Positions 23,103 to 58,006 of a stretch of 64,000 bases of DNA are shown here, piece after piece (position 1 is the first letter of the stretch; every line of letters begins with the position of its first letter). Origin of the DNA: Ecdyonurus torrentis (Eukaryota; Arthropoda; Insecta; Ephemeroptera; Heptageniidae). The notes below the pieces were generated by a model, which saw nothing but the letters and a program-made list of their open reading frames with translations, was not told the DNA's origin and searched no databases. The translations under genes were made by a program, and so were the position numbers. The stretch is from contig OX439133.1 of NCBI GenBank assembly GCA_949318235.1, positions 3,087,097 to 3,151,096 of the forward strand, in the 5' to 3' direction.

Positions 23103-23543
<441 letters not shown>

Positions 23544-29790: not shown

Positions 29791-30124
29791 TTTTTCTTTA
29801 TCTATCAAATTTATCCCTAACGGAGACGGTTTAATTTCCTTACTCTCTTAAACTAAATATTAAAATAAGACTCACTGTCGAGCGTACAACACTCGATCAA
29901 GTCCATCTTATTTTACGTATAAGAGTCTGTATATTAGAGTCCAATATATAGACTCCATATTGGATACATGGATACAATAAGTCTATAAAAGAATTTACTA
30001 TTTTTTTTATAACATTTTAATGTATTTAATTACAATCAATTGTAGCTCTTATGTAAGAGTCGATGTAGTTTTTTTTTTTTTACATCAAGTTCACATGTCT
30101 ATAAGGTTTTTATTAGCTTTGATA

Positions 30125-30740: not shown

Positions 30741-30788
30741 CAGATCCATGCAGACGGCACCGCTGAACTCTGCCTCGGGGGCGTACCG

Positions 30789-30950: not shown

Positions 30951-31089
30951 CTGCAACAAAATAGTGAGGGGTGAGTAAATATGTGTGTGAGTAAGTCAGC
31001 CTCGAGACCCAACTAAAATCTCACCAAGACAGAAGTCGTGGTAAACCTGAGCCCGCGGACGTGAAACCACCCCGAACACATTTCCCTTT

Positions 31090-31540
31090 GACAGGAGGTG
31101 TTCCCCAACCCTTGCCACCCTCCTGGGACCCTCGCAAGGGGTGCTCGTCCCTATCACTCTGACCTGCCTGTGCTCTACACTGGTGTTCCAGTAGTGAACC
31201 GCTACCAAAACACTAATAAAAATACTAGCAGGGCACACCTGACATCTCCCTTTGACAGGAGATGGTATCCCAACCCTTGCCACCCTCCTGGGACCCTCGC
31301 AAGGGGTGCTCGTCCCTATCACTCTGACCTGCCTGTGCTCTACACTGGTGTTCCAGTAGTGAACCGCTACTAAAACACTAATAAAAATACTAGCCGGGCA
31401 CACCTGACATCTCCCTTTGACAGGAGATGGTATCCCAACCCTTGCCACCCTCCTGGGACCCTCGCAAGGGGTGCACGTCCCTATGACTCTGAACGGCATA
31501 TGCTCTACACTTGTGTTCCAGTAGTGAAACACTAACTAAC
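31090..31540. repeat. 165-bp minisatellite (unit 1)
   Basis: About two and a half units of 165 bp, each with ccctttgacaggag, ctcctgggaccctcgcaagg, ggtgttccagtagtgaaccg and aaaatactag. The unit length is a multiple of three and both strands stay open, so long ORFs appear on both strands. I regard them as non-coding. The unit carries the 11-bp iteron motif. Confidence 0.85.
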
Positions 31541-31559
31541 TTTACATGCATACACTTAC

Positions 31560-31735
31560 CAGCCTTGAACATGAATGAACGCTCGTCGTTGACAGACTTC
31601 CCGACACGATTGACGCGCTGTAGTGTTTTGTCCATATCAGACGATGAGTTTAAAGTGGTTTCAGCTGCCGAAGTCTCATTCGGCGCACTGGGCCCTCTCT
31701 TGGCTTTCTTGGCTGCTGGCTTCCGCTTGGCGGGG
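31560..31735 (-). CDS. Lysine-rich exon X, copy 1
   Basis: The acceptor cttaacag and donor GTAAGT bound 176 bp with one open minus-strand frame. The product starts PAKRKPAAKKAKRGPSAP, a basic histone-tail-like or nuclear-localisation stretch, and ends NRVGKSVNDERSFMFKA. It begins in phase 2 and ends in phase 1. Neither partner exon is clear: the preceding phase-2 exon was not found and the next coding exon (30789-30950) is out of phase. Identical in layout to 45136-45311. Confidence 0.5.
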
Positions 31736-32444
31736 CTGTTAAGAAAAAAAAAATTACAAAACCGACAAAAAAACTGAAGATATTATAATCACGTTCATTA
31801 TTATAAAATTACTGTACAATTTGAGATTGATCAGTAATACAGAAACTAAAACCATTAAAAATTGACGTCTAGAAAACAAAAGCACGCTCGGATTCATAAC
31901 TTTGAATATTTCCGTTGCTAATTATGTATAATCCACTCAAACACAGTTTACTCAAACAGAATGACTTGCAAATTTTAGTAACTTGTAATTTCGTAATTTT
32001 TATTTATTTGTACTCCAATTTTTATACGTTACATTAGAAGCACAATTTACTTTAATAAATGTACTTTACCCCATAATTATAATTGATGCAGAGATCACTA
32101 CAAACGAATTATTACTAACTAAACAAACGTAAATTTCTTAAAATTTTAAACGATAGTGTTGAAATTTGCATTTTCAACACGTTTTTTAAACGGCATGAGT
32201 CGCGAGCATTATAAACAAGTTAAAAAGTATAAATACTTAACTTTCCGAACTGAATTATATGTTCAATTAGTACTTCGAAAATTGATAAATGATAATATAA
32301 CCTACCTCATCTTCAACGGAACGTTAGTTAATAGGATTTCACAAAGAAAAATTCAGGAATTCACAATAAGCAGCAACGGATCCAATATGGCTGACTTCAC
32401 AAACATTCTTGTCGCCCCTAGCGGACAAAACTTGATCCACTTGT

Positions 32445-32483
32445 CACTAGTGTTTCGTTAGTGTTATGATAGTGAAACACTGG
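32445..32483. promoter_or_regulatory. 11-bp iteron cluster, intergenic
   Basis: Three TAGTG cores at 11-bp spacing (TAGTGTTTCGT, TAGTGTTATGA, then TAGTGAAACACT) downstream of Rep copy 1. Present identically in unit 2 near 46022-46060. Confidence 0.6.
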
Positions 32484-32808
32484 GCAATAGTCAATGTTAA
32501 TTTACAAAATTATCTAATATATAAAAAAACTATATATAAAACATTATCTATACACATCACAATTAAATCGTATAATTTATGTCAATTTTACATTTAAAAT
32601 TAATAGAACACTTTAAAAATACTAAAAAAAATTAAAAACTGAGTCTTCTGCGCCCGGTCGGTGAAACGCGCGCTTGATCATCAGTTCTCTCGCCAGCAGC
32701 TACTCCTGCAAAATAATTCATATGATTATGTAGTGTATTGCTAACTCGTCAACCACGTTTTATAAATAATCTCCAAATTTTAAATTTTAATATGATTAAT
32801 TAGTCAGA

Positions 32809-33110
32809 CGTTAGTGATACACTAGCGGTACGTATTGATATAGCCAGAATACTTACTTTCGTTGCGGACTGAAACGGCGTAGAAATCAGTAATTCTCTTC
32901 GAGAGCCTCTGATTACCATTTTGTACTGCAGTCCTGCACAACCTAGCATTGCCGTTAGTTTGCGTGCCTGTCAAAAATTAGAAACGGCATAAGTACTTCA
33001 CTGGTGTTTCAGTAGTGATACGCTAGCGTTTAAGTAAAGTCTTAACCATATTTGGGCGCCAAAGTTTGAAATTTCATTCGTTGGCGTTCCACTAGCGTGT
33101 GACTACTGAA
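32809..33110. promoter_or_regulatory. Iteron clusters in Rep introns 4 and 5, copy 1
   Basis: Three sites: 32809-32829 (ttagtgatacactagcgg), 33001-33029 (GTG/GTG/GCG cores 11 bp apart in ggtgtttcagtagtgatacg and following) and 33083-33110 (ccactagcgtgtgactactg). All lie in introns of Rep copy 1. Confidence 0.6.
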
Positions 33111-34492
33111 GAAACCCTAAAATTTCAAATTACTCACCAGATCGTTGGGTATTTTTATTGCCGTTTTCTGTGTTTCTTTGCGAGGCATTAGGTCTGCTAC
33201 TGGCTTGCACCGTATTAGAGGACGAAGGGGTACTACGGTTTTCCGCAATGACACGGCTCCTTTGCGTCCTCTGTCTGTTTTGCGTTGTGGCTCGATTTTC
33301 CGCGGCAATATCTAAGAATCATATAAATATAAATTTCTATCCGTTAGGAGATAATGAAGGTTGACTGTACATAATGATCTCACTATGTACCTCTTACCGA
33401 ACGCGCCTCCCTTATACTTCTCGTTCTGGTTGGCACGTTCGTATCGACAACCGTTTCGGAGATGTCAAATTGAGAACAAAAGGAAGTATTCACGCCACGA
33501 AACTCGATGTTCGTCTCCTTCGCCCTTGGTACTATTATCATATTCCTGCAGTGACGTAACTCCATTGTTACTTGTACGTTCACCATGTGGAATTTCAAAT
33601 GCTCTGGAATAGCCTTGGACGATGTCAGTATAACAGGCACGCTATAGTTGTTGCATACGAGCCCGTTATCGAACGTGACCTGAAATTTGGTTTCAATACA
33701 CAAATGATTAATGTTCCGTTAATGATAGCCTAATGTTAGATATAAAATTCATAAAATATTTGTGATTTACGAAATACTCACGATACTGTCCGTTTCGTAC
33801 TTCAGGATAGGAAGTATGGTATTACCCTCGAAGCGTTTGTTTTCAAGATCTTCAATTACTATTACTTTGTGGAAAGCGGGATTGAAGTGTACCATCGGAG
33901 ACTTAACGTTAGGGACACGATAAGCGTACTCGACAGCTCCTGACTTCTCAAGCACGTATTCAATGAGAGTAGTCTTACCACTCTCTTCCGGCCCTATGAT
34001 GACTAGCGGCTTAGGAAACCGTTTCACTCCCACACTTCCTTGTTTAACGTCTTCGTGATATGCATTGAACTTCTCAAAAAGTAAGTTAATATAGCATATG
34101 CTGGATATACACCAACTGATATTGAAAGAAAGTTCAATGCGCTTGTATTCGGTCCATTCCTTAACTTTCATCTGCTGTCTCAATTTGGTCGCATATTTCT
34201 GCGCCGCCGTGAATTCATGCAGATTTGCAACAAACTCCTTGACTTGCAGTTCGTCCTTGTTAAACAAGCGATGAAATTTTTGATAGTTAGGATGAAACGA
34301 AGATGGAGACACATTGAAAAATGGGAAGAAATCTTCCTTTGTGATGTAAGCCAGCGTTTTTGGTCTGCTTCTGATACTTCGAAGGTGAATTTGCCTCTCC
34401 TGTCCGAAATGGACTTGAATGTTCTGCAAAAAAAAAAAATGAAAACAACCTTTGAAATACAGTATTTATATAAAAGTAACGATAGGCTCATA

Positions 34493-34524
34493 TTTCACTA
34501 GTGAATCACTAATGAAACACTAAC
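34493..34524. promoter_or_regulatory. Iteron cluster in Rep intron 1, copy 1
   Basis: Three consecutive 11-bp units, ACTAGTGAATC, ACTAATGAAAC and ACTAAC. The same array is at 48069-48099 in unit 2. Confidence 0.65.
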
Positions 34525-34941
34525 ACATGATATTCATAATACTAAAATAGCACAAACCTGCAGTAAGACTGTGGAAGAAACATCGCTCTTGTAATGGACG
34601 TAGGCGTGTATGTGACTAACAAACTGTAACGACGTCTTGTGACGTTCTAGAGCAACACAAAATTCGTCCATTACCACGTTCTCTACTTCGCAAAAACCCC
34701 TGAATGTTTCCTTCATCTGAGTCTCGTTGGCAAATTCATTCAATTCGTTACGTTCAAAACTGACAGTTATGAGATAGCTCGGGTGGTACTGTTCTCTCAA
34801 AATACTCTCCGAAGCACCTCCCATTTCTTCTCTTGGCCGTCCTGCTCCTCGACGGTTCTGGTTGTTATTCCGTGCATTAGGAGGGCCATTGGGCGGTGCT
34901 TGTGGTTGCGGTGCTTGAGGATCTGCTAGGAGATTGAAGTG

Positions 34942-35935
34942 ATAGTAGGCAAGTTTAAATGTTATTTTATTTCTTTGACCAAATCCACTAGCTTTAGAGT
35001 AGTGTTTCAGTAGGCAAGTTAAAATGTTATTTTATTTCTTTGACCAAATCCACTAGATTTAGAGTAGTGTTTCAGTAGGCAAGATGAAATGTTATTTTAT
35101 TTCTTTGACCAAATCCACTAGCTTTAGAGTAGTGTTTCAGTAGGCAAGTTTAAATGTTATTTTATTTCTTTGACCAAGTCCACTAGCTTTAGAGTAGTGT
35201 TTCAGTAGGCAAGTTTAAATGTTATTTTATTTCTTTGACCAAATCCACTAGATTTAGAGTAGTGTTTCAGTAGGCAAGATGAAATGTTATTTTATTTCTT
35301 TGACCAAATCCACTAGATTTAGAGTAGTGTTTCAGTAGGCAAGATGAAATGTTATTTTATTTCTTTGACCAAGTCCACTAGATTTAGAGTAGTGTTTCAG
35401 TAGGCAAGTTTAAATGTTACTTTATTTCTTTGACCAAATCCACTAGATTAAGAGTAGTGTTTCAGTAGGGAAGTTTAAATGTTATTTTATTTCTTTGACC
35501 AAATCCACTAGATTTAGAGTAGTGTTTCAGTAGGCAAGTTTAAATGTTATTTTATTTCTTTGACCAAATCCACTAGCTTTAGAGTAGTGTTTCAGTAGGC
35601 AAGTTTAAATGTTATTTTATTTCTTTGACCAAATCCACTAGATTTAAAGTAGTGTTTCAGTAGGCAAGATGAAATTTTATTTTATTTCTTTGACCAAGTC
35701 CACTAGCTTTAGAGTAGTGTTTCAGTAGGCAAGTTTAAATGTTATTTTATTTCTTTGACCAAAACCACTAGCTTTAGAGTAGTGTTTCAGTAGGCAAGTT
35801 TAAATGTTATTTTATTTCTTTGACCAAATCCACTAGATTTAGAGTAGTGTTTTAGTAGGCAGGTTTAAATGTTATTTTATTTCTTTGACCAAATCCACTA
35901 GATTTAAAGTAGTGTTTCAGTAGGCAGGTTGAAAT
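34942..35935 (-). repeat. 62-bp minisatellite at the unit 1 deletion joint
   Basis: About 16 units of 62 bp, each with aaatgttattttatttcttt, gaccaaatccactag and agtagtgtttcagtaggcaa. The last two carry the 11-bp iteron phase. The array begins exactly where Rep exon 1 is cut. Unit 2 has only about five such units, at 56215-56530, next to its big gene, so the array bridges the internal deletion. Confidence 0.9.
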
Positions 35936-36170
35936 GTTTTTCACAAGTGCGCTCTGAAGATAAGTAAATTGATATTGGATTGAGAACGCCTAATATGAAA
36001 CGTTATATTATTATTTTATTATTAATTATTAAACCGAGCCTTGTAGATTTATCCAGTCCAAACTTGTCCCGTCTAATAGTACATGACTAAACGTTATTTT
36101 ATTAAATTTGTTATTAAATTTTAACAAATTTTGAAATAAATATTTAATTGGTTTAAATATATGTACTTAC

Positions 36171-42447: not shown

Positions 42448-42449
42448 AG

Positions 42450-43865
42450 TAAGTTAGTTAAATATGAATTTGTAGATCATACAAGTAAATTTAATATTGC
42501 ATGTATATAGAGTATGATGTGTATATTCACACGAAAAAATATAAATCACTTAATTTATGCTGCATTTATGTCATTATAGCAGAAATAATGATTAATTAAA
42601 ACAACACAAATAGTTATGCTGTACAACATAATATTTATGCTATATGTAACATTTTTTTTTTTTTTTTTTTTTTGCTTGCCATATTGTGTTATCGTGCTAT
42701 ACACCAATCCCAGTCCCATTCAAGAGACATTGTCTTATCGACAGGTAAGGACTTTCCAATTAATGTAAAAGCACACACGGGACGGCCACGGCCTTAGTAA
42801 ACAGCCCGGCATTCGCCATGACAGCCTAGAGAAACCGTGGAAACATCTACGCCTGCTGGTCGGTGCAATCACATCAATCATGCACCTCCCGAATACTGTG
42901 CGTCGTCATGGAATGCATGTAAACTTACATCGTGCAACGTGTTGGGCTCGCACACTTGACGTACGCACCCAGCAGTGGCTCGAACCTATACTCGGTGAGG
43001 AGTATACAGAGTTGCGAGTCAGCTGCCTTCACCACTCGGCCATACCAGCTTGGTATGAAGTTGTTATAAAGTATAGCATAAATTATGCTATATTGAACAA
43101 ATTGTGCTGAAAATGAGCTATAGTATAGGGTGTGTACGCATGACGTCATTCTAAGTGCTTTTCGATGCTCTTCTTGAGTAATAAACAACACTGCTCAGCA
43201 TAGGACAAACGTAGTTTTTGGCTATACGTTCTTTGGAAAGTTAGCTATTTTTTGGTCATTTTTACTTTTCTTGAATACCTAAGCTACTAATTCAACCTGT
43301 TAACAGCATCAGTGCTCTCAAAAAAATTACAAAGTATTTTTAAACTCGCAAAATGTGCTATTTTTCTATAACGGCCAATGTTATTTAGTACTCATGCACT
43401 TATGACGTCGACTTTAACATGAGTGAAACCACCCTATAGTTATTACGTATATTTAATATTGTCCGTGCATATATGAATATTATAAAAGTCATCGCAATGT
43501 TGAATCACTCAATAACATGCACAAATATAGGAAAATGACTTATTTTGCCAGATGATTTTTTTTTTTTTTTTTTTTTTTAGAGCATTGATGTTGTTAATAG
43601 CTTGAATTAAGTTTTCAAGTATGAAAGAAAAATAATGACCAAAAATTGACTGAAATCCATAAAGAAAATGGATAAACACAAAATTTGTGTTATTTATAGA
43701 TCCAAGATGGCGTCAAAGCGCATTCAGTATGACGTCATACGGATACACTTGTTCAATACAGCGTAAATTACGTGATTTATGTTTAATTACGTTTAATTTA
43801 TGTTAACAAGTCCAGCCTTGTTATTTTATCCAGTTAGAACTAGTTAGAACTAGTACTGAAACACT
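42450..43865. repeat. Insertion-derived sequence specific to unit 2
   Basis: Unit 1 lacks this 1.4 kb between block P and the 165-bp repeats. It contains a poly-T run (42651-42674), a family B copy (42676-42850), two family C stretches (about 43120-43440 and 43545-43735) and AT-rich sequence. I see no gene. Confidence 0.7.
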
Positions 43866-43975
43866 AACAAAACACTACTCAAACGACAGCCTCAAGACCC
43901 AACTAAAATCTCACCAAGACAGAAGTCGTGGTAAACCTAAGCCTGCAGGACACAAACCCTCCCCAGACACATTTC

Positions 43976-44890
43976 CCTTTGACAGGAGGTGTTCCCCAAC
44001 CCTTGCCACGCTCCTGGGACCCTCGCAAGGGGTGCACATCCCTATGACTCTGACCGGCCTATGCTCTACACTGGTGTTCCAGTAGTGATACGCTAGCCGG
44101 GCACATCTGACATCTCCCTTTGACAGGAGACGGTACCCATCTCTTGCCACGCTATGTACCTATGAACTAGTACTGAAACACTACTGAAACGACAGCCTCG
44201 AGACCCAACTAAAATCTCACCAAGACAGAAGTCGTGGTAAACCTGGCCCGCGGACGTGAAACCACCCCGAACACATTTCCCTTTGACAGGAGGTGTTCCC
44301 CAACCCCATCCTCCTGGGACCCTCGCAAGGGGTGATCGTCCCTATCACTCTGACCGGCCTGTGCTCTACACTGGTGTTCCAGTAGTGAACCGCTACCAAA
44401 ACACTAATAAAAATACTAGCCGGGCACACCTGACATCTCTCTTTGACAGGAGATGGTATCCCAACCCTTGCCACCCTCCTGGGACCCTCGCAAGGGGTGC
44501 TCGTCCCTATCACTCTGACCTGCCTGTGCTCTACACTGGTGTTCCAGTAGTGAACCGCTACCAAAACACTAATAAAAATACTAGCCGGGCACACCTGACA
44601 TCTCTCTTTGACAGGAGATGGTATCCCAACCCTTGCCACCCTCCTGGGACCCTCGCAAGGGGTGCTCGTCCCTATCACTCTGACCTGCCTGTGCTCTACA
44701 CTGGTGTTCCAGTAGTGAACCGCTACCAAAACACTAATAAAAATACTAGCCGGGCACACCTGACATCTCCCTTTGACAGGAGATGGTATCCCAACCCTTG
44801 CCACCCTCCTGGGACCCTCGCAAGGGGTGCACGTCCCTATGACTCTGAACGGCCTATGCTCTACACTTGTGTTCCAGTAGTGAAACACTA
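43976..44890. repeat. 165-bp minisatellite (unit 2)
   Basis: Five to six units of the repeat seen at 31090-31540, open on both strands for over 200 codons because 165 is a multiple of three. A further partial unit lies at 44990-45110. Each unit carries ggtgttccagtagtg, part of the iteron motif. Confidence 0.85.
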
Positions 44891-45135
44891 ACTAACTTTA
44901 CATGCATACACTTACCAGCCCAACTAAAATCTCACCAAGACAGAAGTCGTGGTAAACCTGGCCCGCGGACGTGAAACCACCCCGAACACATTTCCCTTTG
45001 ACAGGAGGTGTTCCCCAACCCCATCCTCCTGGGACCCTCGCAAGGGGTGATCGTCCCTATCACTCTGACCGGCCTGTGCTCTACACTGGTGTTCCAGTAG
45101 TGAAACACTAACTAACTTTACATGCATACACTTAC

Positions 45136-45311
45136 CAGCCTTGAACATGAATGAACGCTCGTCGTTGACAGACTTCCCGACACGATTGACGCGCTGTAGT
45201 GTTTTGTCCATATCAGACGATGAGTTTAAAGTGGTTTCGGCTGCCGAAGTCTCATTCGGCGCACTGGGCCCTCTCTTGGCTTTCTTGGCTGCTGGCTTCC
45301 GCTTGGCGGGG
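45136..45311 (-). CDS. Lysine-rich exon X, copy 2
   Basis: Second copy of the exon at 31560-31735: phase 2 in, phase 1 out, basic PAKRKPAAKKAKRG start and DERSFMFKA end. It sits about 0.9 kb beyond the Rep stop on the same strand. Whether it belongs to Rep's transcription unit, the WD40-like exon or another gene is unresolved. Confidence 0.5.
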
Positions 45312-46209
45312 CTGTTAAGAAAAAAAAAAATTACAAAACCGACGAAAAAACTGAAGATATTATAATCACGTTCATTATTATAAAATTACTGTACAATTTG
45401 AGATTGATCAGTAATACAGAAACTAAAACCATTAAAAATTGACGTCTAGAAAACAAAAGCACGCTCGGATTCATAACTTTGAATATTTCCGTTGCTAATT
45501 ATGTATAATCCACTCAAACACAGTTTACTCAAACAGAATGACTTGCAAATTTTAGTAACTTGTAATTTCGTAATTTTTATTTATTTGTACTCCAATTTTT
45601 ATACGTTACATTAGAAGCACAATTTACTTTAATAAATATACTTTACCCCATAATTATAATTGATGCAGAGATCACTACAAACGAATTTTTACTAACTAAA
45701 CAAACGTAAATTTCTTAAAATTTTAAACGATAGTGTTGAAATTTGCATTTTCAACACGTTTTTTAAACGGCATGAGTCGCGAGAATTATAAACAAGTTAA
45801 AAAGTATAAATACTTAACTTTCCGAACTGAATTATATGTTCAATTAGTACTTCGAAAATTTATAAATGATAATATAACCTACCTCATCTTCAACGGAACG
45901 TTAGTTAATAGGATTTCACAAAAAAAGTTCAGGAATTCACAATAAGCAGCAACGGATCCAATATGGCTGACTTCACAAACATTCTTGTCGCCCCTAGCGG
46001 ACAAAACTTGATTCACTTGTCACTAGTGTTTCGTTAGTGTTATGATAGTGAAACACTGGGCAATAGTCAATGTTAATTTACAAAAATATCTAATTTATAA
46101 AAAAACTATATATAAAACATTATCTATACACATCACAATTAAATCGTATAATTTATGTCAATTTTACATTTAAAATTAATAGAACACTTTAAAAATACTA
46201 AAAAAAAAA

Positions 46210-48966
46210 TTAAAAACTGAGTCTTCTGCGCCCGGTCGGTGAAACGCGCGCTTGATCATCAGTTCTCTCGCCAGCAGCTACTCCTGCAAAATAATTCATA
46301 TGTTTATGTAGTGTATTGCTAACTCGTCAACCACGTTTTATAAATAATCTCCAAATTTTAAATTTTAATATGATTAATTAGTCAGACGTTAGTGATACAC
46401 TAGCGGTACGTATTGATATAGCCAGAATACTTACTTTCGTTGCGGACTGAAACGGCGTAGAAATCAGTAATTCTCTTCGAGAGCCTCTGATTACCATTTT
46501 GTACTTCAGTCCTGCACAACCTAGCATTGCCGTTAGTTTGCGTGCCTGTCAAAAATTAGAAACGGCATAAGTACTTCACTGGTGTTTCAGTAGTGATACG
46601 CTAGCGTTTAAGTAAAGTCTTAACCATATTTGGGCGCCAAAGTTTGAAATTTCATTCGTTGGCGTTCCACTAGCGTGTGACTACTGAAGAAACCCTAAAA
46701 TTTCAAATTACTCACCAGATCGTTGGGTATTTTTATTGCCGTTTTCTGTGTTTCTTTGCGAGGCATTAGGTCTGCTACTGGCTTGCACCGTATTAGAGGA
46801 CGAAGGGGTACTACGGTTTTCCGCAATGACACGGCTCCTTTGCGTCCTCTGTCTGTTTTGCGTTGTGGCTCGATTTTCCGCGGCAATATCTAAGAATCAT
46901 ATAAATATAAATTTCTATCCGTTATGAGATAATGAAGGTTGACTGTACATAATGATCTCACTATGTAACTCTTACCGAACGCGCCTCCCTTATACTTCTC
47001 GTTCTGGTTGGCACGTTCGTATCGACAACCGTTTCGGAGATGTCAAATTGAGAACAAAAGGAAGTATTCACGCCACGAAACTCGATGTTCGTCTCCTTCG
47101 CCCTTGGTACTATTATCATATTCCTGCAGTGACGTAACTCCATTGTTACTTGTACGTTCACCATGTGGAATTTCAAATGCTCTGGAATAGCCTTGGACGA
47201 TGTCAGTATAACAGGCACGCTATAGTTGTTGCATACGAGCCCGTTATCGAACGTGACCTGAAATTTGGTTTCAATACACAAATGATTAATGTTCCGTTAA
47301 TGATAGCCTAATGTTAGATATAAAATTCATAAAATATTTGTGATTTACGAAATACTCACGATACTGTCCGTTTCGTACTTCAGGATAGGAAGTATGGTAT
47401 TACCCTCGAAGCGTTTGTTTTCAAGATCTTCAATTACTATTACTTTGTGGAAAGCGGGATTGAAGTGTACCATCGGAGACTTAACGTTAGGGACACGATA
47501 AGCGTACTCGACAGCTCCTGACTTCTCAAGCACGTATTCAATGAGAGTAGTCTTACCACTCTCTTCCGGCCCTATGATGACTAGCGGCTTAGGAAACCGC
47601 TTCACTCCCACACTTCCTTGTTTAACGTCTTCGTGATATGCATTGAACTTCTCAAAAAGTAAGTTAATATAGCATATGCTGGATATACACCAACTGATAT
47701 TAAAAGAAAGTTCAATGCGCTTGTATTCGGTCCATTCCTTAACTTTCATCTGCTGTCTCAATTTGGTCGCATATTTCTGCGCCGCCGTGAATTCATGCAG
47801 ATTTGCAACAAACTCCTTGACTTGCAGTTCGTCCTTGTTAAACAAGCGATGAAATTTTTGATAGTTAGGATGAAACGAAGATGGAGACACATTGAAAAAT
47901 GGGAAGAAATCTTCCTTTGTGATGTAAGCCAGCGTTTTTGGTCTGCTTCTGATACTTCGAAGGTGAATTTGCCTCTCCTGTCCGAAATGGACTTGAATGT
48001 TCTGCAAAAAAAAATGAAAACAACCTTTGAAATACAGTATTTATATAAAAGTAACGATAGGCTCATATTTCACTAGTGAATCACTAATGAAACACTAACA
48101 CATGATATTCATAATACTAAAATAGCACAAACCTGCAGTAAGACTGTGGAAGAAACATCGCTCTTGTAATGGACGTAGGCGTGTATGTGACTAACAAACT
48201 GTAACGACGTCTTGTGACGTTCTAGAGCAACAAAAAATTCGTCCATTACCACGTTCTCTACTTCGCAAAACCCCCTGAATGTTTCCTTCATCTGAGTCTC
48301 GTTGGCAAATTCATTCAATTCGTTACGTTCAAAACTGACAGTTATGAGATAGCTCGGGTGGTACTGTTCTCTCAAAATACTCTCCGAAGCACCTCCTATT
48401 TCTTCTCTTGGCCGTCCTGCTCCTCGACGGTTCTGGTTGTTATTCCGTGCATTAGGAGGGCCATTAGGCGGTGCTTGTGGTTGCGGTGCTTGAGGATCTG
48501 CTAGGAGATTGAAGTGTTGATTCCCTACGGCACGATACTCCAGTACCATAGCCCTAATCTCGGGATCAATTTCATTAACCTCATCAGCGTCTAGGTAGTC
48601 GTTCTGCAGAGGGTCTTCCTGTAAAGCTTCTGGTACGCCTTCGTGGACATCTTCTTCGGCTTCGAACGAGTTCTGATGGAATATTTCTTCAATTTCTGCT
48701 TGATTGGCAGCTTCTTCCTCTTCCTCTTGGGATACATAATGTCCATCATGATCTTGTACTTCTTGGGTTCCTCCTCCTTGATCCGACGCATCATCTCCTG
48801 GTTCGCCTTGCGTTCCCTCTGGTACTCCATCATGTCCATCTTCAATAGGAAGGGTGGCATTTTGAGAAGCGATTGAGGTATTGCTAGGCTGACTACCGTT
48901 AATGAATGATGCACTAAAGAAGGGTGTATCAAGATCTAAAGAACTTTGTGAACCGTTGGCATCCAT
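46210..48966 (-). CDS. Rep-like initiator: HUH endonuclease + SF3 helicase, six exons
   Basis: Exons (minus): 48133-48966, 47360-48001, 46976-47257, 46716-46889, 46435-46545, 46210-46283. The first three junctions are phase 0 with GT-AG sites. After an acidic, Pro/Asn-rich N-terminal half, exon 1 has HUH motif I (YLITVSF) and motif II (HIHAYVHYK). Exon 2 has motif III with the catalytic Tyr (YITKED), Walker A (GPEESGKTTL) and Walker B (VIVIEDL). Exon 3 has motif C (VPVILTSS). This order is that of CRESS-DNA virus and plasmid Reps, which nick and rejoin DNA at an origin and unwind it in rolling-circle replication. About 680 residues, longer than viral Reps of about 300, with introns. Start: ATG 48966, right at a TTTCAG acceptor, or ATG 48975. 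The C-terminal frame is uncertain (see findings). Domain order strong; role inferred. Confidence 0.85.
47286..47318. promoter_or_regulatory. Degenerate iteron triplet in Rep intron 2
   Basis: Three 11-bp units, TTAATGTTCCG, TTAATGATAGC and CTAATGTTAGA, in exact phase inside a 102-bp intron. Also present in copy 1 near 33708-33740. Confidence 0.5.
48069..48099. promoter_or_regulatory. Iteron cluster in Rep intron 1, copy 2
   Basis: ACTAGTGAATC, ACTAATGAAAC, ACTAAC in 11-bp phase, as in unit 1 at 34493-34524. Further intron clusters of this gene lie at 46386-46406 and 46579-46608. Confidence 0.65.
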
Positions 48967-49044
48967 CTGAAACATGCAAAGATCAGTTAGTTAATCGTTA
49001 GTGTTACACCAACATAAATCACCGCTATAACGCTACTACAATGT

Positions 49045-49560
49045 GGCTCACGCCTGAAACTCTGGTGTTCCCGTAGTGTTACGCTAGCGTTTTAGTAAAG
49101 TTTAGGATATTTTTGGGCGGCAAAGTTTGAATTTTGATTTAATTTGTTGGTGTTTCACTAGCGTATGACTACTGAAAATACCCAAAATTGGGTCTATGGG
49201 TAGGAAGGTACCCAAAACGATATGGGGGACTCCCTGGGACCCCTACAGCCAGAATATGAAAGATCTGTGACCGCATCTCAAAAATTGCATTTTTGAGGCT
49301 CCTGAAATAGAGAGCGAGTCAAGAATAGTTAAAATTTTCAACCTATTTAAAATTCGTATATATCGAGTCAGGAGCGAAAGTGAAGAAAATTTGAAAATTG
49401 CTGTTTTCGCGTGTTCTGAAGGCACGTGGCGTGTCCCGGCGACCCCCCAAAGCGTTCCTGTCGATCTGGGGGTCGGGGGGCTCCGGCTTGGGTCTTTTAG
49501 GGGCAAGTATTTGTAATCCGTTGGTGTATCGTTAGCGAAACACCAATGAAATGTCAGTCA
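49045..49560 (-). repeat. Repeat T, inverted copy
   Basis: About 500 bp matching 51235-51720 and 51895-52385 in reverse. Both ends carry iteron motifs (gtgttacgctagcg; ggtgtatcgttagcgaaaca). A 60-87-codon frame is open in all copies (contains RYIRILNRLKILTI) but differs in length and lacks any recognisable domain, so I list it as a repeat. Confidence 0.75.
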
Positions 49561-49683
49561 CTGGCTCGATTCAATGGCCAGCCTAAGCTCTGGACTGGTG
49601 TTCCAGTAGTTAAACGCTAGCGTATGACTACGCACTAAGGTCATCTAAATGGGTGAAATATAAGTATAAATGCATACAATTAC

Positions 49684-50112
49684 CTATTTACTCTTGTTCT
49701 TGTAGAAGGTATGCGTCGTGCCGTCCAGGTTATAAGCTCGTCCCTTTCGTACGTTGTAGTAGTAAAAATTTGCCAAGAATGCAGGTTTTTCTTTGTTCAG
49801 TTTTGAATAAAATATTACGTAACTCTTTCTTTCTAATAAAGGAAATGGTTTTACTGCTAAATCTTTAAGAACAGATATCATAAGCAGCGGATCCACTAAA
49901 TTACCATAAAAGAATGTTACTATAATATTTTGCTCCTGCTCGGTGAATTTTCCTACAGCTAAAATTTTTCTGATAGGGAAACTCCACAAATCAAACTCAC
50001 CTATCTGTGAAATTAGGTTTCTTAATGCTTTAGATTCCACCCTCTTAGCTTCAAGACGATTTATATATAATTTATCTTCTTCTTTCTTACTCACGTATTT
50101 GTTTTTAGACAT
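49684..50112 (-). CDS. Small ORF C, second cistron (142 aa)
   Basis: A complete minus-strand ORF from ATG at 50112 to its stop. The A of its ATG is the last base of the upstream ORF's stop (TAATG), the arrangement used for termination-reinitiation in some viruses and LINEs. The basic N-terminus (MSKNKYVSKKEEDK) precedes hydrophobic and aromatic segments (NIIVTFFYGNLVDPLL, YVIFYSKLN, FLANFYYYN) and a basic C-terminus. No signal peptide or known domain. It resembles ORF D in spacing: I-x-K-I-L, then FF, PF-x-x-L and a final Tyr/Asp-Gly segment, suggesting an old duplication. Only in unit 2. Function unknown. Confidence 0.6.
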   Translation of the reverse strand: MSKNKYVSKKEEDKLYINRLEAKRVESKALRNLISQIGEFDLWSFPIRKILAVGKFTEQEQNIIVTFFYGNLVDPLLMISVLKDLAVKPFPLLERKSYVIFYSKLNKEKPAFLANFYYYNVRKGRAYNLDGTTHTFYKNKSK

Positions 50113-50525
50113 TAGTCAGTATAACCTAGAACTCCAGGCCTTATCCAACGTGACCTCAATTCTCCGTTCAGGTATGTCAATCTTTGGCTCACAAGGTCAA
50201 GCGAATAATACCTGCGACGAATTTTGCTACCTTCCTCGTTCGGTTGCGTAATATATCTATATAGTTGTCTAATTTTTAACTCGTCGAAAGGATATAACGT
50301 CGCTTCGTGAAGGTATCTGATCAGCAAATCCTCGTCTAATCTATTGAGAACAAAAAAACACACAATTTTTAATCTTCTCGCGTAAGTGTAACGCTGAGTA
50401 TATAAAATTTTTTGTATGAAATATGGCCAGGTATGCACAGGCCCTACACGGTCTTCTACCACGGTTGTCCAAACCATATCTGTTTTGAATATATATGCAA
50501 ATACCCCACGAATTTTTTGCGGCAA
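50112..50525 (-). CDS. Small ORF D, first cistron (up to 137 aa)
   Basis: The frame is open from above 50525. The first in-frame ATG is at 50477 (122 aa). Alternatively the frame enters through an acceptor just upstream (GCATAG, near 50540) joined to an exon ending at 50873. The product has YFIQKILYTQRYTYARRLKI, then VCFFVLNRLDEDLLIRYLHE, a PFDELKI segment and YLNGELRSRW at the end. Basic and aromatic-rich, no domain recognised. It overlaps ORF C by one base and may be its distant paralogue. Lies between the Rep gene and repeat T. Confidence 0.55.
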   Translation of the reverse strand: MPQKIRGVFAYIFKTDMVWTTVVEDRVGPVHTWPYFIQKILYTQRYTYARRLKIVCFFVLNRLDEDLLIRYLHEATLYPFDELKIRQLYRYITQPNEEGSKIRRRYYSLDLVSQRLTYLNGELRSRWIRPGVLGYTD

Positions 50526-50872
50526 AAAGAGGAACTATGCTAATCTTTATCGCAATTCACTAGTGTTTAACTAATGAAATAATATCTAATTATTATACAC
50601 TGCTAAAAAAAGGAGTGTAAAATTAGTTATTTAATAGTCATTTTCAGCAAATAAATAACACTAAAACATAAAAATTATCGAAAATAAAAACAACGATTTT
50701 AATTATATTAAGTGCATATACATTATACATATACATCATATACATTGCACAAATTATATTAAGTGCAGTACACGTAAAATGTAAAATTAAAAATACAAAA
50801 AGAAATATCGAACACGAAAAAATAATAATCGTCATTATAAACAATAGTAATTATGATTACATAAAATTATAC

Positions 50873-51000
50873 CTTTAAAATTTTTTTCACCGCAGAAAAG
50901 CAGCACACAGCTTCTTCAACAGTTTTTCGCCGCGTCACTAAGCGTTCCTCGAAATGGCTGACGAGCGTGGCAGGAATTGCGGTTGAAATAGTAACTACGA
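50873..51000 (-). CDS. Possible upstream exon of ORF D
   Basis: The minus-strand frame ending AVKKILK at a GTATAA donor (50872) is open for about 45 codons (HFEERLVTRRKTVEEAVCCF) and is phase-compatible with a frame entering ORF D. No ATG is visible in this frame before a stop near 51012, and the 5' boundary is unknown. The intron between (50541-50872) is AT-rich with an iteron at 50557-50580. Confidence 0.3.
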
Positions 51001-51029
51001 AAATATTTCATTTGTGTTACGCTAGCGTT

Positions 51030-51235
51030 TCACTACTAGAACTTCAGTGTAGAGCACAGGCCGGCCAGAGCCAAAGGGATGTGCACCCCTTGCGAGGGTC
51101 CCAGGAGCGCGGCAAGGGTTGGGTAACACCTCCTGTCAAAGGGAAATGTGCTCGGGGTGGTTTCACGTCCGCGGGCTCAGGTTTACCACGACTTCCACAG
51201 GTGAGATTTTCAGGGTGAGGCCCAGCGACTGACGT
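51030..51235 (-). repeat. Inverted partial units of the 165-bp repeat
   Basis: Carries ccccttgcgagggtcccagg, caaagggaaatgtg and gtggtttcacgtccgcgg, the reverse of the 165-bp family. Similar partial units are at 51735-51905 (same orientation) and 52420-52600 (opposite). Confidence 0.75.
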
Positions 51236-51720
51236 TTCATTGGTGTTTCGCTAACGATACACCAACGGATTACAAATACTTGCCTCTAAAAGACCCAAGC
51301 CGGGGCCCCCCGACCCCCAGATCGACAGGAACGCTTTGGGGGGTCGCCGGGACACGCCACGTGCCTTCAGAACACGCGAAAACAGCAATTTTCAAATTTT
51401 CTTCACTTTCGCTCCTGACTCGATATATACGAATTTTAAATAGGTTGAAAATTTTAACTATTCTTGACTCGCTCTCTATTTCAGGAGCCTCAAAAATGCA
51501 ATTTTTGAGATGCGGTCACAGATCCTTCAGATTCTCACTGTAGGGGTACCAGGGAGTCCCCCATATCGTTTTGGGTACCTTCCTAACCATAGACCCAATT
51601 TTGGGTATTTTCAGTAGTCATACGCTAGTGAAACACCAACAAATTAAATCAAAATTCAAATTTTGGCGCCCAAAAATATCCTAAACTTTACTAAAACGCT
51701 AGCGTATCACTACTGGAACA
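51235..51720 (+). repeat. Repeat T, direct copy 1
   Basis: The reverse complement of 49045-49560. It forms a long inverted repeat with it around the ORF C/D pair. Both ends carry iterons (ttcgctaacgatacaccaac; acgctagcgtatcactactg). Confidence 0.8.
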
Positions 51721-51894
51721 CTAGTTCAGAGCATAGGCTGGCCAGAGCTAAAGGGATGTGCACCCCTTGCAAGAGTCCCAGGAGCGCGGCAAGGGTTGGG
51801 TAACACCTCCTGTCAAAGGGAAATGTGTTCGGGGTGGTTTCACGTCCGCGGGCTCAGGTTTACCACGACTTCCACAGGTGAGATTTCAGGTCGG

Positions 51895-52385
51895 GCCCAG
51901 CGACTGACATTTCATTGGTGATTCGCTAACGATACACCAACGGATTACAAATACTTGCCCCTAAAAGACCCAAGCCGGGGCCCCCCGACCCCCAGATCGA
52001 CAGGAACGCGTTGAGGGGTCGCCGCGACACGCCACGTGCCCTCAGAACACGCGAAAACAGCAATTTTCAAATCTTCTTCACTTTCGCTCCTGACTCGATA
52101 TATACGAATTTTAAATCGGTTGAAAATTTTAACTATTCGTGACTCGCTCTCTATTTCAGGAGCCTCACAAATGCAATTTTTGAAATGCGGTCACAGATCC
52201 TTCAGATTCTCATTGTAGGGGTCCCAGGGAGTCCCCCATATCGTTTTGGGTACCTTCCTACCCATAGATCCAATTTTGGGTATTTTCAGTAGTCATACGC
52301 TAGTGAAACACCAACAAATTAAATCAAAATTCAAACTTTGCCGCCCACAAACATTCAAAACTTTACTTAAACACTAGCGTATCAC
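51895..52385 (+). repeat. Repeat T, direct copy 2
   Basis: Tandem to the 51235-51720 copy, separated by a partial 165-bp unit, so repeat T plus the partial unit forms a roughly 660-bp period. From 52640 to 53160 the sequence is AT-rich with no gene visible. Confidence 0.8.
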
Positions 52386-53168
52386 TACTGGAACACCAGT
52401 AGACACTCAAACGACAGCTTTGAGACCCAACTAAAATCTCACCAAGACAGAAGTCGTTGTAAACCTGAGCCCGCGGACGTGAAACCACCCCGAACACATT
52501 TCCCTTTGACAGGAGGTGTTACCCAACCCTTGCCGCGCTCCTGGGACCCTCGCAAGGGGTGCACATCCCTTTAGCTCTGGCCAGCCTATGCTCTGAACTG
52601 GTGTTCCAGTAGTGATACGCTAGCGTTTTAGTAAAGTTTAGGATATTTTTGGGCGGCAAAGTTTGAATTTTGATTTAAATTGTTGGTATGTCACTAGCGT
52701 TTTCATCAAAACCTAAACCTATGCTATTATATTGCTAGTGATTTTGGGTTAAATTTGGGTATACAATTTAAATTTTTATTAACTACTTAGATTTTCCTCA
52801 AGCTATCTATTTCTAACTAAGGTGCTTAATATTTAAGTACTGTATTCCCAGATAATTTTAATATTTAATTATATGTATATTTATAGATTTTTTATTATAC
52901 TATCGTAATGGTAATAAGATAAAAGCACATATTTAATAATTTATATAATATATTTTTTTTATAGTCGTCATTTTATAATTACAATATACAAATTTGTAAT
53001 TTTATATTAAGATATATGTAATTAATTATTCATTATTAAATTACATTATACATTATACAATGTAGTCCATCAAGCTGGATCATGAATTATTTAAAAAGTA
53101 AGACATTTAACATCACAAAGTTAACACATTAAAATATTAATATTAAAATACAATTATCAAATAGTGGA

Positions 53169-55741
53169 TCAATCTTCAGTTTCATCTTCATCTGACTTAG
53201 GCTCTTCTCCGGACTGCTGTGTTTTCTTATCTTCCTTTGCTTTCTTCCTTGACCTGGTCTGCAAGGTACCTGATGAAGTGGTGTTTGGAGTTGCGTTCAG
53301 ATCGAGCTGCGTCTTTACTACAGATAAAAAAAATAATTAGTACCTTTTCAAATTTTCTATAAAACTATCTTACGTTTCTGTCTTCTCCTATATTCTTCCA
53401 TATCTGCGTTCTTCTGCGCCTGAGTCTCTGTTATTGGATCCAATATTGGTGGATCTGCGTTTGGTTCGTCCTCAGGCTCCTCTTGATCTGCAGGTGTATC
53501 GGGTGTATCGATATGTGATGTATTGGGAATGGTTGCATCAGGATCTATTTCATCTTGACCTTGACCTTGTTCAGCTGTATCTTGTTCCTCCTGCAACGGT
53601 GGCCCCACGTACATTTCTTCATCATAGTTGTATGGCTTCTTCTTAGCCTTAGGGACGTTTTGTTGTTCCGCCGCGTCGTCTTCCTCTTCTGTGTCTAGAG
53701 AATCATCTGTTTCTGGAAAAAAAGAACGTAACACAAATCAGTATCAAAATTCGTTAACAATGTATAATATTAAAAAATCGTTAATGCATAAAGCCGTACC
53801 TGAGTCCTGCTGACCTACGCCAGAGGTTTCACCTATAAGGGTATCGAAGAGTCGAGGACTTCGAAATGGCAATTTGTGAGTATTACGAGGAGTGCTTGTA
53901 AGTAACTCATAATCAAGGTTGATATTTCGATTGACTTGTAGGTGTGCGTCAGCTACGGCCTTACTCGGAGGTAGAATACAAGGGACTCCATTAGGTAACT
54001 CTCGGGCGAGCCCACCTTCCTTCAACAGGTAGACAAAGTCATTGCCTGAAACAGGAAAACGGATATTATCTATAAGACACTATTAAATAAATTAAATAAA
54101 AATATAAACTTTGGCGCCCAAATATCACGTCAATTGAGCCAAATCAGTAGCGTTTTACCAACGAAACGTTAGCGGTATTGGGTCTCATTTACTTTTTATC
54201 ATGAAATAATGAAATATAAAGAAAAATGCATCATAATATTATAATTACTTTCGGCATCATCACGCACACGGATGGGGAATTTCTCGGTGCCTTTGCCGGT
54301 CGGCACATCTAGGCTCATGTAGTCCTGATGGATGAAGGTGCTCAATGACATCAGTTCAGACTGCATATCCATGAAGGCAGCCAAGGCTTTCTTGTGGATC
54401 TGTAATATCAAGAATGCATTAAACATTACTATATAAATATTCAACTCATTATTAAGAAAACTTACCTTCACTTTCTTAGGATCGTCAACCAGCAGTGAAG
54501 GCCTGAGGACCACTTGAGCATTGAAGCCCTTCCTGATAATGTTGCTTATCTTCTCCCCGCAGTACATTAAGTAGGCTCGATGACGCTCCTCTTCCACACT
54601 ATCCAGATCTGTACGAGGTTTCTTCTTGCGGCTCTCTCGCTCTGCTGTCTCACGCTCATAGGTTTCTCTTCCTCTTTTAGAACGTACTGTTAAGGTTGAC
54701 GACTCAGATTCTTCGCCGCATTTTGCATCCTTTTCCAGTTTTTTTGCCTCCTCCACTAGAAATTTCTTGTACTTGCCGGAGTAGCAGCTATCAAGCAAGG
54801 GACCCAGCGTGCGCTCAAATACGTGGTCAAAAATAGCTTGTCCCGTTAGAACTTCCTCGTAGGTCCTTGGCAGAAAGTCCTTTACTGACCCAGCACTCGG
54901 CATGGCAAGCTGCGAACAAAAATAATAAATACACATTATTGCATTACTAATGAAACACTAGTGTACCTAAAAAACGCATTAAATAAAAACTATAATTAAA
55001 AATTAATTTGTGATGCACTTACACGACAAGGGATCACGGAGGTAGGTTTGCCTCTGGTAACGATGAACTTGAATCGCTCCTTCAGGGTCGGGAAGTGGCC
55101 AGTGTCAGTCAGTTGTTGCAGGTCTTCCTTGTGGTAAGTTACCAGATGATTAAAAAAGGCATCCTCCCTCATCTTTTTCTTAATATAAAATGTAGATTTC
55201 TGGCTTTTGCCCCAATGCATGCCCGTGTCAATCTGAAGTGCCTTTGCAATCTCTGCTACTTGGGCTTCTGTAAAGAAGGCTTCTTTCTCGAACTTTAAAT
55301 TGCGCCCAGTCCACAGCGTGAGCATCCATAGACACGTAGAATTGGCGTCATTAAAAAATGTGACGGGGTCACAAATTTTATGACGCCTGAGTTGAGATTG
55401 CAGAGGGGTCCAATATTTTACGTGCGTGTTCAATACACTATAAAACTTGAACCACATTTGGTTGAAGTTGGCATTTAAGGGTAACCAGTCGTTGAGCGCG
55501 TACTCTAGGAATTGTACCCTATCTGTGCCGTCGTGAAGTGCGCGGAATCTAGCACACTTAGCAAGCAGCGCATCGTTATCCATAAGTGCAGGTGTGTCAT
55601 CAGGATCATCAGTATCTTCCTCCTCCTTGCTGACATCCTTAATCACCATTACCTTCAACCCGTCGACTTCCAAGATGAGGTAACGGATGGGGACATAGAT
55701 TCTGCCTGGCTTGTCTGGGTCTCGGGCCGCACCGATTTCAC
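53169..55741 (-). CDS. Large nuclear-type gene, exons 4-9 (unit 2)
   Basis: Six exons: 55023-55741, 54466-54909, 54249-54399, 53800-54045, 53374-53712, 53169-53317 (TGA). All junctions are GT-AG and phase-consistent (0, 0, 1, 1, 1). The first begins by completing a Gly codon, matching the phase-1 end of exon c at 58007. With exons b and c the product is about 800 residues. Visible parts: a globular region with RIYVPIRYLILEVDG and Trp-rich helices (LNDWLPLNANFNQMW, CLWMLTLWTGRN); a charged helix and basic cluster (RESRKKKPR), a probable nuclear localisation signal; a long acidic Glu/Asp/Gln/Pro-rich tail; a final basic then acidic end. No family recognised. The acidic and basic pattern suggests a nuclear or DNA-associated protein. 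Absent from unit 1. Confidence 0.7.
54144..54178. promoter_or_regulatory. Iteron cluster in an intron of the large gene
   Basis: CAGTAGCGTTTTACCAACG followed by aaacgttagcgg lies in the intron 54046-54248. Another cluster, cattactaatgaaacactag, is in the intron 54910-55022 at about 54943-54962. Confidence 0.55.
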
Positions 55742-55764
55742 CTGGAAATGAAAAAAAAAAAAAG

Positions 55765-56215
55765 TCAGAACATTACTTAAACACTAGCGTATCATCAGTG
55801 GTGAAATTTACGTAACTCAGATTTTAACACTCTGGGATTGAGAATATTACTCTCGTACTTTTTTTTTTCCAAGTCAGAACATTACTAAAACACTAGCGTA
55901 TCATCAGTGGCGAAATTTACCTAACTCAGATTTTAACCCTCTGGGATTGAGAATATTTCTCCCGTACATTTTTTTTCCCAAGTCAGAACATTACTAAAAC
56001 ACTAGCGTATCATCAGTGGCGAAATTTACCTAACTCAGATTTTAACCCTCTGGGATTGAGAATATTACTCCCGTACTTTTTTTTCCCAAGTCGGAACATT
56101 ACTAAAACACTAGCGTATCATCAGTGGCGAAATTTACCTAACTCAGATTTTAACCCTCTGGGATTGAGAATATTACTCTCGTACTTTTTTTTCCCAAGTC
56201 AGAACATTACTAAAA
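55765..56215. repeat. 108-bp minisatellite
   Basis: About four units with tcagaacattactaaaacac, tagcgtatcatcagtggcg and aaccctctgggattgagaat. Each carries an iteron half. It lies in the intron between exon c and exon 4 of the large gene and passes directly into the 62-bp array. Confidence 0.88.
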
Positions 56216-56530
56216 CACTAGCTTTAGAGTTGTGTTTCAGTAGGTGAGTCTAAATGTTATTTTATTTCTTTGACCAAATCCACTAGATTTAAAGTAGTGT
56301 TTCAGTAGGCAAGATGAAATATTATTTTATTTCTTGGACCAAATCCACTGGATTTAGAGTAGTGTTTCAGTAGGCAAGTCTAAATGTTATTTTATTTCTG
56401 TGACCAAATCCACTAGCTTTAAAGTAGTGTTTCAGTAGGCAATATGAAATGTTATTTTATTTCTTTGACCAAATCCACTAGCTTTAAAGTAGTGTTTCAG
56501 TAGGCAGGTTGGAATGTTTTTCACAAGTGC
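56215..56530 (-). repeat. 62-bp minisatellite, unit 2 (about 5 units)
   Basis: Same unit as at 34942-35935. The right flank (acaagtgcgctctgaagata) is shared with unit 1, which fixes the right edge of the unit 1 deletion. Confidence 0.88.
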
Positions 56531-56739
56531 GCTCTGAAGATAAGTAAATTGATATTGGATTGAGAACGCCTAATATGAAACGTTATATTATTATTTTATT
56601 TTTAATTATTAAACCCCATCAATGCTCTCAAAAACATTGCATAGTGTTTTTAAACTGCCAAAATGATTTTTTGTCCTATGCCACCCATGTTATTGAGTTA
56701 TCCAACATGGCGTCGACTTTAACATGTATGCATAGACCC

Positions 56740-57590
56740 TTTTAACATTGTAAATCACTAGCGATTCAGTACTGTTTCACTAGTCTATATATAAAATTTA
56801 CCCTTATAGAACTTAGAATATTATAAGTTTAACTATTCTATTACATTGTAAATCACTAGCGATTCAGTACTGTTTCACTGGTCTATATATAAAATTTACC
56901 CTTATAGAACTTGGAATATTACAAGTTTAACTTTTCTATAACATTGTAAATCACTAGCGAATCAGTACTGTTTCACTAGTCCTTTTATAAAATTTACCCT
57001 TATAGAACTTGGAATATTATAAGTTTAACTATTCTATTAACATTGTAAATCACTAGCGATTCAATACTGTTTCAGTAGTCCACATATAAAATTTACCCTT
57101 ATAGAACTTGGAATATTATAAGTTTAACTATTCTTTTAACATTGTAAATCACTAGCGATTCAGTACTGTTTCACTAGTCTATATATAAAATTTACCCTTA
57201 TAGAACTTAGAATATTATAAGTTTAACTATTCTATTACATTGTAAATCACTAGCGATTCAGTACTGTTTCACTGGTCTATATATAAAATTTACCCTTATA
57301 GAACTTGGAATATTACAAGTTTAACTTTTCTATAACATTGTAAATCACTAGCGAATCAGTACTGTTCCACTAGTCCTTTTATAAAATTTACCCTTATAGA
57401 ACTTGGAATATTATAAGTTTAACTATTCTATTAACATTGTAAATCACTAGCGATTCAATACTGTTTCACTAGTCCTTATATAAAATTTACCCTTATAGAA
57501 CTTGGAATATTATAAGTTTAAGTTTTCTATTAACATTGTACATCACTAGCGATTCAGTACTGTTTCACTAGCCTATATATAAAATTTACC
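56740..57590. repeat. 99-bp minisatellite with iterons
   Basis: About nine units, each with cactagcgattcagtactg followed by tttcactagtc (three iteron cores 11 bp apart), then aaatttacccttatagaact and ggaatattataagtttaac. Unit 1 lacks it. Located in the same intron of the large gene. Confidence 0.9.
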
Positions 57591-58006
57591 CCTTTTTTAC
57601 GGCCAATAGTAGTCGTTTTGACTTTGCTAAGGGGAGTAGCCTAAACGTTATTTAATTATTATTTTGATTAGTAATTTATTATAAAGGGAGACGTATATAA
57701 ATTTAAAATATTTGTATTTATTATTGACTATTAATCATTACTTGATCATTACTGAATTACTAACGAATAACTGAATTACCGATATGAGCAATCACAGATT
57801 GTCCTATGATAGAAGCCTCAACAGTTTAAAAACAAATAGCTCCACCCTCTTACTGCGGTCTTTTTTATTTAAAAAAACCTTTCCATATAAATAATAGCAA
57901 CCCACACTATCCTTAACCACGACATTTTTCCCTTTAACACAAGCCTTAAATTGCTTTTAACAAACTTTGAAATAAATATTTAATTGGTTTAAATGTATGT
58001 ACTTAC

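Follow-up and report, generated by a model that had tools for sequence, protein, structure and literature searches.

An HUH-SF3 Rep gene with recurring partner genes in a mayfly genome, best read as the initiator of an integrating replicon family

Helitrons and Replitrons are chromosomal HUH elements; the helicase of Helitrons is not of superfamily 3 (SF3), and Replitrons have none. To our knowledge, neither is known for long inverted ends, and no eukaryotic HUH transposon named so far has an SF3 helicase. Copies of Rep genes in animals are usually read as dead viral inserts. An HUH domain followed by an SF3 helicase is the plan of the Reps of CRESS-DNA viruses (Cressdnaviricota) and related plasmids, in which motif I is described as UUTU, motif II as HUH and motif III as YxxK, with one tyrosine (PMC6668415). 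Parvoviruses also have an HUH-SF3 initiator (Rep/NS1) and replicate by rolling hairpin (PMC6668415, PMC5714925), and the bacterial pCRESS are integrated Rep replicons that lack known structural genes (PMC6668415). Here we describe a Rep gene of this plan in a 64,000-nucleotide stretch of the genome of Ecdyonurus torrentis (the window, G000:C12:3087097-3151096; assembly of 503 Mb in 117 contigs, in which C numbers denote contigs and L numbers loci). Our best reading is that it belongs to a new family of integrating Rep replicons.

The Rep gene runs from 48966 to 46278 on the minus strand, with the six motifs in sequence, and is described by a six-exon model with phase-0 GT-AG introns. Two small genes, Y1 and Y2, lie upstream of it. 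The features are:

48133..48966, minus strand: Rep exon 1, with the acidic N-terminal part and HUH motifs I (YLITVSF) and II (HIHAYVHYK)
47360..48001, minus strand: Rep exon 2, with HUH motif III (YITKED), Walker A (GPEESGKTTL) and Walker B (VIVIEDL)
46976..47257, minus strand: Rep exon 3, with motif C (VILTSS)
46716..46889, minus strand: Rep exon 4, basic, from the phase-0 GT-AG model; RCK..ADLMPRK is common to the C8 lineage (by eye)
46435..46545, minus strand: Rep exon 5, tentative, from the model only
46278..46283, minus strand: Rep exon 6, tentative, from the model only, with the stop in GAG TAG
49684..50112, minus strand: gene Y2, 142 residues, intronless
50112..50477, minus strand: gene Y1, 121 residues, intronless, Y2 paralogue

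The original prediction had named six HUH and SF3 motifs in this order, and this was confirmed in the sequence, on the minus strand. Their cores are LITV (I), HIH (II), YITK (III), GPEESGKT (Walker A), VIVIED (Walker B) and VILTSS (C). Motifs I to III agree with the UUTU, HUH and YxxK forms, with the order kept, and Walker A, Walker B and motif C are also present in order, the helicase motifs being read as SF3 by eye. Chance occurrence was estimated by shuffling each exon separately 200,000 times. The exon-2 pattern (YxxK, Walker A and Walker B at Rep-like spacing) was obtained in 0/200,000 shuffles, the exon-1 motif pattern in 1,692/200,000, and motif C of exon 3 in 6,747/200,000, which makes the last weakly diagnostic. 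Judged by its sequence, the locus is a real HUH-SF3 Rep gene. Its proposed membership among CRESS-type Reps comes from motifs and not from a profile or fold match, and the motif order implies that it should act in the CRESS-type manner. The gene had also been predicted to contain introns and to span 46210..48966. Introns 1 and 2 still have their GT and AG in a C8 relative (69% identical at exon 2), in which the intron sequences differ, and the last three introns remain model-based; the start at 48966 was kept, and the stop was placed at 46278, not at 46210.

A search of the assembly with exon 2 gave 23 rows, which were counted as at least 20 Rep loci (all counts are lower bounds); three rows at C20:262 kb were merged as one locus, and two at C10:20.7 Mb likewise. 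Six loci are 98-100% identical in exon 2. Four on C8 and one at C4:7.77 Mb are 69% identical, and those on C48 and C72 are 66% identical and are perhaps one locus, because 7.7 kb of both are 99.99% identical. The loci at C20:0.26 Mb and on C24 are partial, and the most diverged loci, at 25-33%, are on C10, C15, C12:6.46 Mb, C8:20.86 Mb and C17. The loci form at least three lineages, and the motif residues are largely retained across lineages that are 25-33% identical. The HUH part of the C10 locus matches the window lineage (tblastn among the fetched loci, E about 1e-10). In C10, motif III shares the open frame of motifs I and II, and at C15 and C12:6.46 Mb motifs I-III and Walker A and B lie within single open frames of 608 and 624 residues, so that intron 1 of the window gene, at least, is lineage-specific. 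Two loci have inverted duplicates: in L020 (C4), Rep stretches at 2469-4657 and 7713-9901 are inverted and 99.95% identical over 2,189 bp, and in L013 (C17), 2813-3782 and 6578-7545 form an inverted duplicate of 98.97% that places a reverse-transcriptase-like frame to either side of the Rep-Y2 block.

The stop of Y1 overlaps the start of Y2 (TAATG), and both genes are on the same strand as Rep. Y2 was found 18 times, and in 15 of these places a Rep match lies on the same strand within 3 kb; this was not so at C10:44.7 Mb, C26:4.26 Mb or C8:5.78 Mb. Y1 adjoins Y2 in the window and in the C4 (both), C8, C48, C72 and C20:0.26-Mb loci, and at C15, C12:6.46 Mb and C17 the Y1 query gave just a weak overlap with Y2. 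The Y1-Y2-Rep block recurs, reduced to Y2-Rep in the lineages that have diverged furthest. Y1 and Y2 of the C8 lineage align ungapped over 99 residues with 21% identity (E 9e-07 in a single comparison), by which Y1 is a paralogue of Y2. Neither matched a family above cut-off in Pfam, PHROGs or NCBIfam, and the two would constitute a new protein family. The many copies, the several lineages, the recurring partner gene and the terminal or flanking repeat arrays described below support the suggestion that the gene may be the initiator of an integrated Rep element. We put the probability that this Rep initiates replication in a family of mobile, integrating replicons of the genome at roughly 0.57.

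Selection was estimated from pairwise ratios (omega) of nonsynonymous (dN) to synonymous (dS) divergence by the Nei-Gojobori method with our own script. Between the window and C8, dN was 0.18-0.25 for Rep exon 1 (HUH part), Rep exon 2, Y1 and Y2, and 0.43 for Rep exon 3, with dS saturated; for the acidic N-terminal part, dN was 0.62 against a dS of 2.9. Between C8 and C4, omega was 0.24 for Rep exon 2 and 0.17 for Y2. These ratios show purifying selection between lineages on Rep exons 1-2, Y1 and Y2. With at least 20 loci, at least three lineages and motifs largely kept, this agrees with the earlier view that the gene is not a simple dead viral relic. A second suggestion, that it may be a domesticated Rep, was not supported. 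A single Rep captured and turned into a host gene would have open frames, introns and purifying selection, as are found here, but the copy pattern disfavours it: at least 20 loci are scattered across numerous contigs, some copies are tandem, inverted or broken (L018 and L012 among the last), repeat arrays accompany them, and we regard such a history as very improbable.

Repeat arrays were found in the window lineage and in the C8 lineage, with a box of 14 nucleotides, TTTCCCTTTGACAG, common to both. L017, a C8 copy, measures 7.06 kb and has inverted ends of ~530 bp that are 96.8% identical and built of 99-bp units. Its right terminus, CGAAAATATGTGC, is also present in L014 and the near-identical L015 and is missing at the left end. 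Each end of L017 contains four boxes and L014 has three; the box is also present in L018, L020, L021 and L023, and it was not found in L009-L013, L016, L019, L022 or L024. In the window it lies at 31081, in a second copy of the element, and at the positions given here:

43842..45110, plus strand: left array of R1 repeats, box at 43972, 44276 and 44991
51006..52399, minus strand: right inverted array of R1/R2 repeats, box on the minus strand at 51133 and 51810
52405..52700, plus strand: further R1/R2 copy, box at 52499, start of the part that holds gene X (below)
49062..49564, plus strand: R2 repeat between Rep and Y2
55762..57591, plus strand: minisatellites of 109, 65 and 98 bp with the TAGYG half-site motif

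The positions and orientations of the box show that a segment Z-Rep-Y2-Y1 of the window (gene Z is described below) is flanked by inversely oriented arrays of the kind that ends L017. Dispersed motifs were found as well. Within 45120-50550 there are 14 half-sites TAGYGWWWC, where 200 shuffles gave 0.9 on average and never more than 4; they sit in introns and spacers and are often palindromic as TAGTGAAACACTA. The window has 88 half-sites: 57 lie in 43880-57600, 25 belong to the second copy, and of the other 6 one is at the element edge. Other loci of the window lineage have many (19 in L018), and the 25-33% loci have 0 or 1. A TAATGAAATC-like motif, a pattern picked after inspection of C8 k-mers, occurs in the C8 lineage 8 times in the element and not once in 10.8 kb of flanking and neighbouring sequence, and 10 times in the L014 element against 0 in the remaining L014; the window has 0. 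A hairpin at 46010-46062 was not significant (z -1.53, 17/200 shuffles equally stable). At C8:5.69-5.82 Mb, the element copies (L017, L025-L033) lie inside a ~342-bp satellite and were multiplied along with it. A 33-bp direct repeat at C8 was considered as a target-site duplication and dropped, as it lies in this satellite and is ambiguous. By the marks of a DNA transposon with terminal inverted repeats, the C8 lineage has the inverted ends, and the duplication is ambiguous in satellite DNA.

A number of observations weigh against an integrating replicon family. Terminal inverted repeats are clear in one lineage (C8) only. The C15, C12:6.46-Mb, C8:20.86-Mb and C17 loci showed neither the box nor the dispersed motifs, and C10 has no box and a single half-site. 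No clean target-site duplication was seen. Among the C8 places with Y2, the left junction string is present in 4/5 and the right one in 5/5, and because this single shared junction lies inside the ~342-bp satellite, the C8 copies come from one insertion. Some copies are broken: L018 (C20:0.26 Mb) has lost the intron-1 donor, reads LVKV at motif I and contains stops, L012 has lost the first histidine of motif II and the tyrosine of motif III, and in the C48 relative the intron-2 donor is gone. L010, L011 and L013 have HTH at motif II. Omega between C8 and C48 is high on few changes (0.53 for Rep exon 1, 0.74 for Y1 and 2.7 for exon 3). In the databases, no Rep or SF3 profile of Pfam matched at the curated cut-off, and no solved Rep structure in PDB matched the window Rep or its relatives. 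Two scans of IMG/VR (1 and 118 pattern-matching stretches) confirmed zero relatives, tblastn against phages gave 4 records at E 1, all to the P-loop only, and tblastn of the HUH part of L009 against plasmids found nothing.

The match to HUH and SF3 profiles that the original prediction had looked to was thus not obtained. The profile test of the window gene is the weaker one because exons 1 and 2 were scanned separately; profile and structure searches were also negative for L009, L010, L012 and L013, relatives in which the HUH part is unsplit. Because the motif residues are largely kept at 25-33% identity, we read the missing match as extreme divergence and not as refutation, and homology to CRESS Reps rests on the motifs, their order and their conservation. 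Among family libraries, Pfam and NCBIfam gave nothing at curated cut-offs and PHROGs gave weak matches only. Below the cut-offs, exon 2 had weak P-loop matches (Pfam ATPase_2, E 0.0013; NCBIfam elongation factor G, E 0.00085), exon 3 matched Baculo_p74_N (E 0.012), Y2 an aminoglycoside nucleotidyltransferase model (E 0.0031, with 16.5 bits where the cut-off is 550), and the HUH part of L010 an HNH endonuclease phrog (E 0.0067). Low-complexity stretches of L010 also hit entries of Pfam and PDB. Protein searches at E <= 1 gave none for Rep exon 2 (49 candidates), the HUH part of exon 1 (6) or the first X exon (122), with candidates chosen to follow the length of the query piece, so that much longer relatives fall outside their scope. 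Exon 2 against plasmids gave 5 records, none significant, the best being an unannotated stretch of a Photobacterium plasmid (E 0.1, 29% over residues 61-183). AlphaFold2 on single sequences gave models of low confidence, with a predicted local distance difference test score of 34.3 for exon 2 and 43.8 for Y2. No such element was noticed among the abstracts found by searching open-licence literature. An unrelated P-loop gene in which the motifs arose by chance would go with this lack of Pfam and PDB matches, the exceptions being weak P-loop ones near Walker A. However, the order and spacing of the six motifs in the shuffle test and the motif residues largely kept between lineages that are 25-33% identical leave this explanation hardly credible.

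Two further genes and a second copy of the element show how the copies have been rearranged:

45136..45311, minus strand: gene Z exon 2, lysine-rich, donor GCTG/GTAAGT; first exon about 45883-45887 (by eye)
55023..55741, minus strand: first X exon, acceptor CAG/GTGAAATC
53357..54910, minus strand: further X exons, boundaries approximate
30997..36035, minus strand: second copy, truncated, with Z, a 5'-truncated Rep and the 65-bp minisatellite

In C20 and C4, X follows Z with R1 repeats between them; the window has X upstream of Y1. The Z donor (GCTG/GTRAGT) and the X acceptor match in phase and are found in both arrangements. Because of these phases and the Z-X order kept in C4 and C20, Z and X are probably one gene, ZX. 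As it is split in the window and in order in two other copies, the copies are permuted or rearranged, and the split in the window was probably caused by a circularly permuted or otherwise rearranged integration. C20 has a second X copy in tandem, and C26 has only the stretch equivalent to 46868-49103. The window lineage has X at four places, weak relics of X lie on C11 (45% over 73 residues) and C26 (26%), and omega between X copies is 0.08-0.31.

The original prediction had mentioned near-identical duplicate copies. The second copy in the window (32.6-34.94 kb) is indeed 98.8% identical over 3.5 kb (32 mismatches in 3,526 compared columns), but it lacks the acidic N-terminal part of Rep, being cut off by the 65-bp minisatellite. 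The element copies at 31407-34941 and 44988-48516 are 98.8% identical, whereas the duplicated host segments are mostly 90-94% identical, and 182 bp of host DNA next to the right end of the second copy are at 96.7%. This difference suggests that the element parts were homogenised by gene conversion or arrived after the duplication. A host segment is tandemly duplicated at 29280-30996, 40892-42454 and 63042-64000, and a frame at 42453-42247 on the minus strand is WD40-like by eye.

Permuted and truncated copies would also be left by an undescribed lineage of nuclear DNA viruses with a spliced HUH-SF3 Rep that integrated occasionally, with ZX or Y1/Y2 as structural genes. The small overlapping genes Y1/Y2, the spliced genes and the several separate lineages would suit such endogenous copies. 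On the other side, no open reading frame was recognised as a capsid gene, that of CRESS viruses included, in Pfam, PHROGs or NCBIfam. All open reading frames of at least 95 residues in the C8 unit lie within or overlap Y1, Y2 and Rep, X is limited to the window lineage and the two weak relics, and the IMG/VR scans confirmed no relative. We consider a viral origin of this kind, with a capsid not yet recognised, plausible but less likely than not.

Compared with described systems, the gene shares the order of domains and motifs with CRESS Reps, and differs in having no detectable sequence match, a long acidic N-terminus, a motif C ending in TSS, up to five introns (window lineage) and a place in a chromosomal element with Y1/Y2; the permuted copies are compatible with a circular form and are not proof of it. 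The C8 lineage resembles in outline the linear parvovirus genome with inverted terminal repeats; unlike in parvoviruses, no capsid gene was recognised, no profile matched, and the repeats are minisatellite arrays in which a hairpin is not demonstrated. Helitrons and Replitrons are likewise chromosomal, but no helitron or other helicase profile of Pfam matched, so that the Helitron combination of Rep with a non-SF3 helicase was not seen. Unlike pCRESS, which are site-specific bacterial integrants, the element had no significant match in the plasmid collection.

For an integrating replicon family, the known chemistry of HUH-SF3 proteins suggests the following route. Rep would bind the repeat arrays or the dispersed palindromes, the tyrosine of motif III would nick one strand, and the SF3 part would unwind the DNA. 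The element would then be copied as free DNA, either circular or linear via a hairpin route, and this DNA would re-enter chromosomes to give permuted and inverted pieces. Y1 and Y2 may be accessory replication or integration factors, and ZX may be cargo or else peculiar to the window lineage. Taken together, the data are consistent with a replicon family selected as replicating DNA. A fuller proposal is that animal chromosomes carry a class of mobile DNA not described before, made of elements that lack a capsid and have a spliced HUH-SF3 Rep, duplicated Y1/Y2, long inverted terminal repeat arrays, parvovirus-like hairpin or circular copying and several old lineages in one genome; we hold it tentatively, somewhat short of even odds. 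The diverged copies, usually next to the same small partner, suggest that replicons of this type are able to exist as parasites of the genome. If so, a selected Rep element of several lineages with a partner gene would show a virus-type replication machine persisting in this way and would link single-stranded DNA viruses and transposons. Its binding-site-like dispersed motifs, terminal boxes and partner genes would offer comparative material for the conversion between the two.

Elsewhere in the window, a large inverted repeat at 4400-20530, with arms at about 4.4-8.2 kb and 15.9-20.5 kb, is rich in CAAGATCTTG-type palindromes and gave no Rep, Y or Z match. Between its arms, near 13.59-13.77 kb, lies an exon that looks by eye like that of a secreted protein. 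A TATC microsatellite of about 110 copies occupies 23105-23543, and an interspersed repeat of the 'gtttgacatccctgc / ggcccgc' kind, which may be hAT-like, lies at 12065-12405.
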